Shown here in pieces: positions 57,179-61,889 of a DNA stretch of 64,000 nucleotides (position 1 is the first letter of the stretch; each line of letters opens with the position of its first letter). This DNA is from Haloplanus sp. CK5-1 (GTDB taxonomy: Archaea; Halobacteriota; Halobacteria; Halobacteriales; Haloferacaceae). The notes beneath the pieces were generated by a model. That model ran no database searches. It worked only from the letters and a program-made list of their open reading frames with translations, and had not been told where the DNA came from. The stretch spans positions 2,108,001 to 2,172,000 of the forward strand of contig NZ_CP147505.1 of NCBI RefSeq assembly GCF_037201915.1, read 5' to 3'. Made by a program: the position numbers and the translations under genes.

Positions 57179-57484
57179 TCACTCTTCGTCCGCGTCGTCG
57201 AGATCCGCGAGCTCCTCGAGTTCGTCGAGGTCCTCGCCCCCGCCGAGGAGTTTCTTCGCGACGAGCGTGACGACCGCGACCGCGAGCGCCGCCAAGAGCA
57301 GTTTGCCGGCGGTGCAACCGCGACAGGAGCCACCGTCGGTCCCGCCGTCGTCCTCCGACTCCGGGCCGACCTCGCTCTCGGTCTCGTCGTCGAAATCGTC
57401 GTCCCCGCCGAACGTCGCGGGACCGATCTGGATCGTGCCGTCGCCGAGGTGGAACTCGAGGAGCGTGTACTTTTTGTCTGCCAT
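57179..57484 (-). CDS. Small acidic membrane protein
   Basis: 101-aa protein with an N-terminal beta-like segment (KKYTLLEFHLGDGTIQIGPA), an acidic linker, one hydrophobic helix (TAGKLLLAALAVAVVTLVAK) with a CRGC pair just before it, and an acidic tail. It is a conserved haloarchaeal type of unknown role and lies upstream of mvk on the same strand. Confidence 0.75.
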   Translation of the reverse strand: MADKKYTLLEFHLGDGTIQIGPATFGGDDDFDDETESEVGPESEDDGGTDGGSCRGCTAGKLLLAALAVAVVTLVAKKLLGGGEDLDELEELADLDDADEE

Positions 57485-57549
57485 ATCGTCCCTTGTGCGA
57501 GCCGAGACTTAGCGGTTGTGTCCCCGCGGTGGCGGAGCGGCGTCACCGA

Positions 57550-59049
57550 TCATCGGAGCCGGCAGATGGTTCGGTTGTGGTACCGGAGTGCGGACTCGGC
57601 GGGTTCGTGCTCGGCGGTTACGAAAAGCTCGTCGCCGTCGACCGCCGAATCGTACGGGTGGTCGACGGACAGATCGTCGACGTGCACCCGGACGACCCCG
57701 TTGTCGAAGTCCACGTGGTGGTTCGGACAGAGGACGAGCATGTTCTCCGTCACGTCGGACCCGCCGTGGGGTGCCTCCAACGGGCGGAGGTGGTGGACCT
57801 CCGAGTACCCGGTCCCGTCGCTACTCGCCAGTCGGGTCCCGCAGAGCTGACAGCGGTCGTCGTACAGCGATTTGAGACGTGCGACGCGGTCGGGGTCCCG
57901 TTCGACCCGATCGACGAGCGTTCTGAACCGCCGGGGTGTCGTCCCGAACGCACCCGGAGGGACGGTCACCTCGTCGAACTGGTCCAACTCATCTTCCGGT
58001 CGTGTCCCCGAGTGCGACGGGACCGTCCCCCGATCGACGAGGTCCAACTCGTCGCGCCACAGATCGGCGAAGTACTCCGGGTCGTACTCCCGATGACGGA
58101 ACGGGCCGCCACTCAACTCGGCTACGCGGTCGAACTCGCGGAGGAGGTCGTAGAACCCTCGTTTGTCGCGGTGGACGTTCTCGTCGAACGCCGGGAGGAT
58201 GCCCTCGACCAGACCTTCGGAGGCCTCCGCCAAGACGAGCAGTCGCGGGTACAGGACGTCCAGTATCCGGCGAACGTTGGACGCGCCCGTGAACGTGATC
58301 TGCAGGTCGTTCTTCCCGGACGAGTCGCCGTAGGTGAGGTCGTAATCCTCGCAGAACTGGCGGAACGCGTTCACGAACGTCGGACAGACGCCGGACCGGT
58401 GTAGCCGGGCGATGGGATACATGGCGTACCCGATTTCGTAGTCGGATGCTTCCGCGATGCTCGCCCGGTATCGGCAGACACCGTCGTACACCCCCGCGAT
58501 CCACTCGACGGTGTATCCCGTCCGGAGTTCGGTGTGGGGCAGCGCCGGTGTTTCGACGTCGTCGGTCTCCACGTCGTGTCGGTCCGAGATATCGTCGGGC
58601 GACACGTGGTACCGACCTTTGGGTCGCCAGCCGTGGCGGAGTTCGTCCCGTGCCACCGTGAAGCGGTAGACGTCGACCGGGTCGAGGATGTCGAAATCGA
58701 ACTGGTCGGCGAAGACTCCGTCGACGAACGCCAACTCCCTGATCAGGTGAGCCGACCGTCCGTCGAGAAACGACTGGAGGTCTTCGAGGTCGGTTCGACG
58801 TTGGAGACGAAAGAACTCGTCGCCGTACTCGCGTTCGATGAAGTCGTACCGATAGCCACGCTCCTCCAGAAATTCGCCGATCACGGCGGCCCGAAGTTGC
58901 GTCTGGTGTGGACTGAGCCGGAGCATCGGCCGGACCGTGTACCCGTCCTGTGGCGTCTCGCTGATGTCGAATCGGACCCGTCCGACGGTGTCGAACAACC
59001 CCGCGACGTACGAGGGGTCGAAGTCGATCGGGGCCTCCTCGGCGCTCAT
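57550..59049 (-). CDS. LAGLIDADG-HNH fusion protein
   Basis: 499-aa protein. Two LAGLIDADG-like helices occur at residues 15-23 (VAGLFDTVG) and 184-192 (IAGVYDGVC), spaced as in two-repeat homing endonucleases. The acidic residue that binds metal in each is replaced by Val (V22, V191). The C-terminal HNH domain is intact: C400-x2-C403, H419-H420 (YSEVHHLRPL), and C441-x2-HH (VLCPNHHVDF). It looks like a LAGLIDADG scaffold reused for DNA or RNA recognition with HNH doing the cutting. It stands alone, not inside an intron or intein. Confidence 0.75.
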   Translation of the reverse strand: MSAEEAPIDFDPSYVAGLFDTVGRVRFDISETPQDGYTVRPMLRLSPHQTQLRAAVIGEFLEERGYRYDFIEREYGDEFFRLQRRTDLEDLQSFLDGRSAHLIRELAFVDGVFADQFDFDILDPVDVYRFTVARDELRHGWRPKGRYHVSPDDISDRHDVETDDVETPALPHTELRTGYTVEWIAGVYDGVCRYRASIAEASDYEIGYAMYPIARLHRSGVCPTFVNAFRQFCEDYDLTYGDSSGKNDLQITFTGASNVRRILDVLYPRLLVLAEASEGLVEGILPAFDENVHRDKRGFYDLLREFDRVAELSGGPFRHREYDPEYFADLWRDELDLVDRGTVPSHSGTRPEDELDQFDEVTVPPGAFGTTPRRFRTLVDRVERDPDRVARLKSLYDDRCQLCGTRLASSDGTGYSEVHHLRPLEAPHGGSDVTENMLVLCPNHHVDFDNGVVRVHVDDLSVDHPYDSAVDGDELFVTAEHEPAESALRYHNRTICRLR

Positions 59050-59153
59050 ACCCCGTCAACTCGACAGGCGACATTAACGATTGGGTCGGAGCGGCGACGA
59101 CCGGTGAGAGCGTCGGCACAACCCACTTGGTCGTTCGCATCCTTCCTCCGTCA

Positions 59154-61889
59154 ATGGATCGGCCCGACGAGAACGGCGGCGTCGCCGGTGTCGATGGCGA
59201 CCTGGTCGCCCAGGCCGCCGACGCCGACGTCCTCTCCCTCCTCGACCCCGCAGTTCGGGAGTGGTGGGTCGACCGCTTTGGCTCGTTCGTCCAGGAGAAC
59301 GGCGGCTTCTTCACGCCGCCACAGCGCGAGGCGATCCCGCTGGTTCACGAGGGACGGAACGCGCTGATCTGCGCCCCGACTGGCAGTGGGAAGACGCTCG
59401 CCTCCTTCACCGCCATCATCAACGAACTGTTCCGGCGGGAGCGAAACGGGGGACTCGACAACGCGGTGTACTGCCTCTACGTGTCGCCGCTGAAGGCGCT
59501 CGCGAACGACGTGGACCGCAACCTCTCCGACCCGCTGGACGGCATCCGCGACCGGTTGACCGATCGCGGCGAGTCGACGGCGGTGCGCCACGCCACCCGC
59601 CACGGCGACACCGACGACGCGACCCGGCGGCGGATGGTAGACGAGACGCCACACGTCCTCAACACGACGCCCGAGACGCTCGCCATCCTGCTCAACTCGC
59701 CGAAGTTCCGCGAGAAGCTCCGGACTGTCGAGTACGTCGTCGTCGACGAGATTCACGCGCTGGCGTCGAACAAGCGCGGGACCCACCTCTCGGTGTCGCT
59801 CGAACGTCTGGAGGTACTCGCCGACGGGTCGCCCACCCGGATCGGCTGTTCGGCGACGGTCGAACCGCTCTCGACGATGGCCGAGTTCCTCGTCGGCCGC
59901 CAGGGCGGCGAGCCACGCGACTGCGAAATCGTCGACGCCCGCTTCGCCCGTGAGTTCGACCTGCAGGTCGAGTGTCCCGTCGACGACCTCGTGGGGACGC
60001 CCCGCGAAGTCGTCCGCGACCGCTTCTACGACCGACTCGACGACCTCGTCTCGACCCACACCAACACGCTGGTGTTCACGAACACGCGGTCGGGCGCCGA
60101 GCGGGTGTTGCAGGCGCTCAGGGAGCGATTCGACTACGACGACACGGACTCGGCGTGTCACCACGGCAGCCTCTCGGCCGACCGCCGGCAAGCGGTCGAG
60201 GAGGGGCTCAAACGCGGCGACCTCGACGTGGTCACCACGTCGACCAGCCTCGAACTCGGCGTCGACATGCCCCACGTCGACCTGGTGGTCCAGGTCGGCT
60301 CCCCGAAGTCGGTGGCGGCGCTCCTCCAGCGGGTCGGGCGGGCGGGCCACCAGGTCGGGCAGGTCGTCGAGGGACGAGTGGTCGCGCTGGACCGGGACGA
60401 CCTCGTGGAGACGGCGGTGATGGCCCGGGCGGCCGAATCCGGGTTCGTCGACCGCGTGTTCGTCCCCGAGAACGCCTACGACGTGGCCGCCCAACACGTC
60501 TACGGCATGGCTATCGCCCGCGTCCGTCCCGAACGCGAGGTGCGGGCGATCCTCCGGCGGGCCTACCCGTACCGCGACTTCTCGGACGCGAACTTCGAGA
60601 CGCTGTTTCGCTACCTCACCGCCGACTACGAGGGACTCGAGGAGCGAAACGTCTACCCGAAGATCTGGCGGGACCGGAACGATCCACCCGAGGGCGACCA
60701 CCACCACCCCGGGTTCGAGGAGGGCGAGCGGCTGATCGGCAAGCGCGGCCGCCTCGCTCGGATGATCTATCTGACCAACGTCGGCACCATCCCCGACTCC
60801 TTCTCGTGTGACGTGTTCGTCCGCGGCGAGGACGCGTGGGTCGGCGAACTCGACGAGGACTACCTCGACACGCTGGAGACTGGCGACGTGTTCGTCATCG
60901 GCGGCGACCGTTTCGAGTTCCGCTACCGACGGGGGTCGAAGGTGTACGTCGACCGGACGAGTGCCCGCCCGACCGTGCCGTCGTGGTACTCCGAACGCCT
61001 CCCCCTCTCCTACGACCTCGCCCGCGAGATACTCGCCTTCCAGCGGGACTTGGTCGACCGGCTGACGGCCGGCGGCGCGCCCGCGGCCCGCGACTGGCTC
61101 CGCGGCTCGCCGCTCTCGGAGCGGGCGGTGCGGGCGCTGACCCGCCTCTACGACCAGCAGGTCGCCTTCGCCGGCCCCGAGAGCGTGTCGACGCCCGACC
61201 GGATCGCAATCGAGGAGGTCCGCGACCGCGAGGAGTACCGCCGGCGCTACTACGTCCACACCGTCTACGGCCGCCGGTTCAACGACGGCCTCTCGCGGCT
61301 CGTGGCCGCGAAGTGCGCGAACGAGGCGACGGCGAGTGTCACCGTCGCCGTCGCCGACAACGGGTTCGTCCTCTCGATGCCGCTCAACCGCCGGATCGAC
61401 GTGCCCGGCCTGCTCCGGGGACTCGACCCCGACGACTCCCGGGCCGACCTCCGGGCGGCGCTCCGGGGGACCGACCTCCGGAAGCGCTACTTCCGCATCG
61501 ACGCCACGCGCGCCCTGATGATCCTGAAGCGGTACAAGGGCACCGAGAAGTCGGCCGCCCGCCAGCAGATCGAGAGCGAGACGCTCCTCTCGTTGGCCGA
61601 CGACCTCGACGAGTTCGCCGTGATCGAGGAGACGGACCGCGAACTCTTAGAGGACAAACTCCACGTCGGTGGAATAATCGAGGTGCTCGACGGCGTCCAG
61701 TCGGGGTCGATCGACGTGGTCGAATCGACCGTCGAGACGCCGACTCCGCGCGCGTTCGGGCTGGCGACGCTCGCCGCGACGGACACCGTCATTGCCGACG
61801 ACGAGAGCGCCGCCCTCCGGGCGTTCCACGAGCGGGTGCTGGCGGAAATCGAAGGCGACGCCCCTGAGGACTCATCCCTCGACGAGTAG
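59154..61889 (+). CDS. lhr: Large Lhr-type superfamily 2 helicase
   Basis: 911-aa ATP-dependent 3'-5' helicase. The motifs are LICAPTGSGKTLASFTAI (I), YVVVDEIHALASNKRGTHLS (II), GCSATVEPLS (III) and VTTSTSLELGVDMPHVDLV then LLQRVGRAGHQ (V-VI). The C-terminal half is the Lhr-specific winged-helix and DEXH-associated region. In archaea and bacteria Lhr acts in DNA repair. The start at 59154 fits the family; its last 18 bases overlap the convergent larA-like gene. Confidence 0.93.
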   Translation: MDRPDENGGVAGVDGDLVAQAADADVLSLLDPAVREWWVDRFGSFVQENGGFFTPPQREAIPLVHEGRNALICAPTGSGKTLASFTAIINELFRRERNGGLDNAVYCLYVSPLKALANDVDRNLSDPLDGIRDRLTDRGESTAVRHATRHGDTDDATRRRMVDETPHVLNTTPETLAILLNSPKFREKLRTVEYVVVDEIHALASNKRGTHLSVSLERLEVLADGSPTRIGCSATVEPLSTMAEFLVGRQGGEPRDCEIVDARFAREFDLQVECPVDDLVGTPREVVRDRFYDRLDDLVSTHTNTLVFTNTRSGAERVLQALRERFDYDDTDSACHHGSLSADRRQAVEEGLKRGDLDVVTTSTSLELGVDMPHVDLVVQVGSPKSVAALLQRVGRAGHQVGQVVEGRVVALDRDDLVETAVMARAAESGFVDRVFVPENAYDVAAQHVYGMAIARVRPEREVRAILRRAYPYRDFSDANFETLFRYLTADYEGLEERNVYPKIWRDRNDPPEGDHHHPGFEEGERLIGKRGRLARMIYLTNVGTIPDSFSCDVFVRGEDAWVGELDEDYLDTLETGDVFVIGGDRFEFRYRRGSKVYVDRTSARPTVPSWYSERLPLSYDLAREILAFQRDLVDRLTAGGAPAARDWLRGSPLSERAVRALTRLYDQQVAFAGPESVSTPDRIAIEEVRDREEYRRRYYVHTVYGRRFNDGLSRLVAAKCANEATASVTVAVADNGFVLSMPLNRRIDVPGLLRGLDPDDSRADLRAALRGTDLRKRYFRIDATRALMILKRYKGTEKSAARQQIESETLLSLADDLDEFAVIEETDRELLEDKLHVGGIIEVLDGVQSGSIDVVESTVETPTPRAFGLATLAATDTVIADDESAALRAFHERVLAEIEGDAPEDSSLDE

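Follow-up and report, generated by a model that had tools for sequence, protein, structure and literature searches.

The window, that is, the whole stretch of 64,000 nucleotides analysed here, a segment of a haloarchaeal chromosome (G000:C1:2108001-2172000), contains a reading frame (57550-59049, minus strand) that is open throughout and encodes a protein of 499 amino acids; it lies between a conserved 101-aa gene (57179-57484, minus) and a gene for an Lhr-type helicase (59127-61889, plus). The protein is composed of two consecutive LAGLIDADG domains that have lost their acids, a linker and an HNH nuclease domain. LAGLIDADG domain 1 comprises residues 9-165 (58555-59025, minus), as defined by profile match, AlphaFold2 model and structural alignment (Z 20.9), and domain 2 residues 179-335 (58045-58515, minus), as defined by profile match (3.0e-52) and model. 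A low-confidence linker (pLDDT < 50) follows at residues 338-386 (57892-58038, minus), and residues 387-499 (57553-57891, minus) form an HNH domain of the TagI type. The sole Pfam match in the 499-aa protein is HNH_2, at residues 400-452 (4.4e-8); the same Pfam search found no SRA, EVE or SBD domain (modified-base/PT readers) and no HTH family, and residues 7-334 correspond to the LAGLIDADG pair.

The distance between the 101-aa gene and the helicase gene is 1643 bp in the window genome, while it is 87, 171, 60 and 53 bp in the genus-mates G004, G005, G006 and G010, respectively; the Lhr protein of G004 is 91% identical to that of the window genome. Since these four genus-mates have an empty site, the gene is probably an accessory insert of about 1.6 kb that carries a single gene (approximate extent 57523-59114, from the comparison with genus-mates). 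The intergenic position and the four empty sites rule out a core gene, and the core location proposed in the initial annotation has to be withdrawn. Across G001-G011 the gap (57485-59126) is variable, being empty or occupied by CxxC mini-genes, by another gene or by the LAGLIDADG-HNH insert; other, unrelated short genes are found there in G009 (614 bp) and G003 (871 bp), a longer stretch in G002 and a rearranged order in G001, and the left flank was not found in G007 and G011. Inverted arms, GGTTGTG...CACAACC, flank the gap in some relatives. The GC content of the gene is 64.7% (83% at third positions), compared with 66.2% for the window. Other fusion genes occur elsewhere, on a plasmid beside ParA and in Haloferax beside a DUF7342 winged-helix gene; the fusion loci compared have no common target locus, no defence island was recognisable at three of them, and no methylase was present among the neighbours scanned, which were 10 genes around the Halobacterium plasmid copy, 10 around the Haloferax copy, apart from one masked stretch, and 5 around the window gene.

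When used as a lone query, the window protein gives no Pfam LAGLIDADG match. Relatives were drawn from 99 relative genomes and, using residues 1-340 as query, from 392 genomes of the order; matches were obtained in 38 of the 99, mostly to the HNH alone, and in 27 of the 392. Compared with the PDB, a profile built from 17 single domains finds a single-chain I-CreI derivative as best match (2.8e-16), then I-PanMI (1.1e-14) and I-CreI (2e-8); nine of the 17 domains match Pfam LAGLIDADG at E-values up to 5, the best being 3.7e-6. In an AlphaFold2 model built from 7 sequences, residues 11-310 mostly have pLDDT values of 72-95, with one block at 60. All 50 Foldseek matches listed for this model are LAGLIDADG structures (best 2.9e-14), and VIA-align superposes 291 residues on a single-chain I-CreI variant with Z 20.9 and rmsd 4.3; I-LtrI, I-OnuI, I-SmaMI and single-chain I-CreI share the fold of residues 7-334 with Z 20-21 over about 280-290 aligned residues. 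Since profile, Foldseek and VIA-align all agree, the LAGLIDADG fold of the N-terminal part is secure, as the initial annotation had claimed; the structure prediction that it had called for models residues 7-334 as a LAGLIDADG pair and not as an unrelated fold. An over-reading of the motifs as an artefact is ruled out: the profile, the fold and the counts across the family all speak against it.

Position 8 of the LAGLIDADG helix, which we take to be that of the metal-binding acid, equivalent to D20 of I-CreI, is occupied by valine in both domains: V22 in VAGLFDTVG of helix 1 (58984-58986, minus) and V191 in IAGVYDGVC of helix 2 (58477-58479, minus). Reading of the motifs and the family alignment confirm the two valines first pointed out in the initial annotation, as well as the retention of the packing residues, the helix residues G17/D20 and G186/D189 being invariant in 7 aligned two-domain proteins. 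In the second motif, Cys192 stands at a place that is usually Gly. A count was made on 39 related proteins pooled from all loci (L107 being incomplete and unreadable): none of the 39 readable domains of 29 related haloarchaeal and haloviral proteins has Asp or Glu at position 8, whereas in one distant clade, made of 9 proteins of about 220-290 aa, the acid is found in 18 of 18 domains. From these alignments, acid loss is a trait of the whole family, beyond chance (0/39 vs 18/18). Thus the survey of homologues suggested at the outset finds the loss to be consistent in the close family, and homologues that keep the acids do exist, as a separate distant clade. In that clade all 9 domains reaching that far also have Lys at the place of I-CreI K98. 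Its members (L014, L044, L046-L050, L052 and L103) carry GEG and AEG/ADG motif units only about 38 residues apart in each chain and are near-identical across families; the copy on a Halorhabdus tiamatea plasmid is located upstream of a DrmE-family gene.

The strands lining the saddle are net positive in 17 of 17 aligned domains, and also in all 33 dead domains spanning at least 120 profile positions, whose average charge is acidic; in the acid-bearing domains the saddle-strand charge is at or above zero in 5 of 9, and a permutation gives a value of 0.03 for the window protein taken by itself. These positive strands are weakly suggestive of DNA binding, though strands are generally less charged than helices. 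In WhiA, which is also a dead LAGLIDADG protein, the DNA-binding surface is described as much altered and DNA as bound via the HTH (PMC3781837); because WhiA binds DNA by the HTH instead, a dead LAGLIDADG scaffold may not need to bind DNA.

In the C-terminal domain, C400, C403, H420, N436, C441, H444 and H445 are invariant in 13 aligned HNH domains, so that the Cys/His set is complete, as initially reported. Compared with solved structures, the domain matches TagI (1.9e-26), EcoKMcrA (1e-9) and ScoMcrA (7.7e-5); a separate model of residues 354-499, built from 12 sequences, has a pLDDT of 85 and retrieves TagI by Foldseek (4.1e-10, 40% identity), and PADLOC assigns mREase_IV to the HNH (1.2e-6). 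By these comparisons the domain belongs to the HNH subfamily of the TagI/ScoMcrA-type modification-dependent restriction enzymes, with its predicted catalytic set intact. In other haloarchaea the same HNH is found C-terminal to an SRA domain (L004, 1.7e-4, under the curated cut-off) or to MTaX1 (L012, 3.4e-22), and also behind N-terminal parts without Pfam identity (L005, L007) or with weak Pfam identity (L009). As the same HNH stands behind SRA or MTaX1 elsewhere, the LAGLIDADG pair occupies, by domain order, the place of modified-DNA readers in HNH proteins. TagI (SRA-HNH, PDB 6ghs), ScoMcrA and EcoKMcrA likewise have this HNH type C-terminal after a DNA-reading part, but their reader is an SRA or SBD domain, while the putative reader of the window protein is a dead LAGLIDADG pair. 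Another HNH enzyme of the haloarchaeal world is HHPV4I (SRA-wH-HNH), from halovirus HHPV4; the H, N and H of such an HNH domain are reported as required for cutting (PMC10101028), and Gm6ATC is read there by a winged helix, unlike the LAGLIDADG pair.

As regards the history of the fusion, a tree of 38 rows was obtained, in which the HNH fusions included are the window protein, two from Haloferax and one from a Halobacterium salinarum plasmid. The acid-bearing proteins form one clade (100/100) and the four HNH fusions another (98/94), the surrounding rows being all without acids. Because the fusion clade's closest relatives without HNH also lack the acids, the simplest history would be acid loss first and HNH fusion later. 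The idea that one chemistry was replaced by another on the same scaffold thus stands for the loss of the acids and for the intact HNH, but not for the order of events, the scaffold being apparently dead before the HNH joined it. HNH fusions are rare, found in 3 of the 392 genomes of the order plus 2 plasmid records. A second LAGLIDADG pair-HNH fusion, found in G393 (L037; L065:7515-9098), carries a different HNH (HNH_2, 1.3e-13) without the Cys pair; it does not group with the other four fusions, though its branch is poorly placed in the tree, and looks like an independent HNH fusion. A single origin for all HNH fusions is therefore not supported. A scan of IMG/VR viral contigs with the window protein gave no relative, and a like scan of genome contigs missed relatives known from another search, so that scans of this kind are insensitive.

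Two-domain relatives without HNH are found in a different setting. In each of G016, G362, G265 and G296 such a gene lies in a conserved cluster, and annotated copies are present on plasmids of Halococcus dombrowskii (L109) and Halobaculum rubrum (L110, the same as the G296 copy). In L109 its partners are PbeA (2.6e-226), the DndD-like PbeC (1.2e-228), an N6/N4 methylase and a GHKL-N6/N4 methylase, together with two further, uncharacterised proteins of 145 and 393 aa; the 145-aa gene follows PbeC, at the place expected for pbeD, whose product has 152 aa (PMC6459918). All five two-domain HNH-less relatives examined are housed in operons with PbeA and PbeC (L109 by profile, the remaining ones through BLAST matches to L109), and an N6/N4 methylase is present in 4 of the 5 operon stretches fetched, L156 being the one without. 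PMC6459918 raises the possibility that a solitary PbeAC pairs with methylases. However, the LAGLIDADG gene is no general Pbe part as far as these loci go, since among 53 of 384 genomes that match PbeC at 1e-30, with 15 loci above a clear score gap (E < 1e-200), it is found at only 4 of the 15 top loci; the 393-aa partner is at the same 4, and 5 more distant PbeC loci that were fetched have neither. At E <= 1e-30, PbeC finds no match in the window genome, and the window gene lies outside any PbeA/PbeC operon, such pairing being seen only for HNH-less relatives. In 5 of 5 operons the two-domain LAGLIDADG gene comes together with a gene of 370-400 aa that has weak TPR matches only (L109:10803-11984, L155:6802-7974, L157:6763-7953, L158:10875-11984 and L156:7140-8012); in G016 (L156) this 370-400-aa gene is broken, by reading, by a transposase-like ORF.

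In two sister operons, L144 and L145, the PbeA, PbeC, PbeD-like, GHKL-methylase and methylase genes all match L109, and the slot flanked by the PbeD-like gene and the GHKL-methylase, which in other operons is filled by the LAGLIDADG gene with its partner, contains a 540-aa array of homing-endonuclease-associated repeats with no nuclease (L144:10469-12091, PF18780 HNH_repeat, 7.3e-67, in 5 stretches; L145:5674-7293, by reading). The sharing of one operon position by two different nuclease-free homing-endonuclease modules points to a DNA-recognition subunit as the candidate role of the slot gene in methylase-bearing Pbe-like operons. The link to the PbeABCD and CxC ABC-ATPase systems (PMC6459918, PMC10853773) is that homologues of PbeA and PbeC, mostly with methylases, stand beside the HNH-less relatives, whereas the window gene is outside any such operon; neither paper speaks of LAGLIDADG in its main text.

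Taken with the restriction-type HNH, these data would be best explained by a single-chain, restriction-like endonuclease in which the dead LAGLIDADG pair reads DNA and the HNH cuts beside the bound site, a reading to which we assign a probability of about 0.55. The pair would fold as a pseudo-dimeric saddle and bind double-stranded DNA, perhaps at a long site or at one defined by its modification state; the flexible linker would let the C-terminal TagI-type HNH cut beside it, probably after pairing with its counterpart in another molecule, as TagI does. The scaffold would descend from the dead LAGLIDADG family of haloarchaea and their viruses, whose members are probably DNA-recognition parts, the HNH having been added after the acids were lost. 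Because the gene travels alone, with no methylase among the neighbours tested, the simplest self-protection would be that of Type IV enzymes, with cutting confined to DNA that is foreign-type or modified. We infer that the protein would serve restriction rather than homing, with dependence on DNA modification.

A free-standing homing endonuclease, with its LAGLIDADG chemistry swapped for HNH, would instead cut the empty intergenic allele and be copied in by repair. A lone gene at an intergenic site that is empty in G004, G005, G006 and G010 is what such an element would leave, and the inverted arms of some relatives would suit a pseudo-dimeric reader; it is nevertheless unlikely, given that the other fusion genes lie at unrelated places, beside ParA and the DUF7342 gene, that in G009 and G003 the gap takes its unrelated short genes without any LAGLIDADG-HNH enzyme, that the HNH is of restriction-enzyme type and that the closest relatives are defence-operon genes. 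Two-domain LAGLIDADG homing endonucleases differ from the window protein also in that the latter has no acids (V22, V191), lies outside any intron or intein and carries an HNH.

Less likely still is a regulator or structural DNA-binding protein, with the HNH as a minor or inactive appendage. WhiA/DUF199, a known regulator, has a LAGLIDADG scaffold with its metal-binding residues lost (PMC3781837), as in the window protein, and single-domain dead relatives without nuclease fusion are widespread; the window protein, however, has no HTH by Pfam, ends in a nuclease and is encoded by an archaeal accessory gene, and none of the aligned fusion members has lost a catalytic or zinc residue of the HNH. 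That the LAGLIDADG pair, instead of reading DNA, mediates protein-protein contact, for instance with a Pbe-like complex, would account for the constant presence of the 370-400-aa gene in the five Pbe-like operons; we consider it quite improbable, since the fusion gene stands alone in a genome without PbeC at the threshold above and since the part that takes its place in the sister operons is a homing-endonuclease-type repeat.

Beyond the single enzyme, it can be tentatively proposed, at somewhat less than even odds, that in haloarchaea dead LAGLIDADG pairs have become a domesticated, general module for addressing DNA in immunity: on the one hand as a methylase-type Pbe specificity subunit, exchangeable with nuclease-free homing-endonuclease repeats, and on the other, with a TagI-type HNH fused to it, as a one-piece restriction enzyme with recognition of meganuclease length or sensitive to modification. 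The LAGLIDADG half and the HNH half are each known, and their natural pairing was not found in the open literature searched, subscription journals lying mostly outside the search. An engineered protein cited in PMC3857828, in which PvuII is joined to a catalytically inactive I-SceI, follows the same arrangement, with a dead LAGLIDADG pair as address and another nuclease as cutter, but is man-made, while the present one is natural; if the address-module proposal is true, the family would be the natural counterpart of such engineered dead-meganuclease/nuclease fusions. The locus offers a natural test case for a selfish nuclease turned into the DNA-reading part of a defence. Should the pair still be able to bind DNA, it would be a restriction recognition module unlike SRA, EVE and SBD, possibly with long sites, and would suggest the DNA reader of those Pbe-like systems that have methylases instead of phosphorothioation.

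The dead family extends to other genes and to viruses. The window genome has a second dead LAGLIDADG gene, single-domain and of 175 aa, with a DTVG motif (G000:C1:162729-163193, L057), whose neighbours are surface-protein-like ORFs. The family search matched 54 phage records; in Hafunaviridae haloviruses a 161-aa single-domain relative adjoins an ERCC4-type nuclease gene (HF2, L111:3986-4471; HSTV-4, L112:3986-4471), and in the two examined, HF2 and HSTV-4, the acid position is Leu or Ile. This relative is annotated variously as endonuclease domain protein, LAGLIDADG endonuclease or HNH endonuclease; the name "LAGLIDADG endonuclease" is hereby corrected for halovirus family members whose metal acids are gone.
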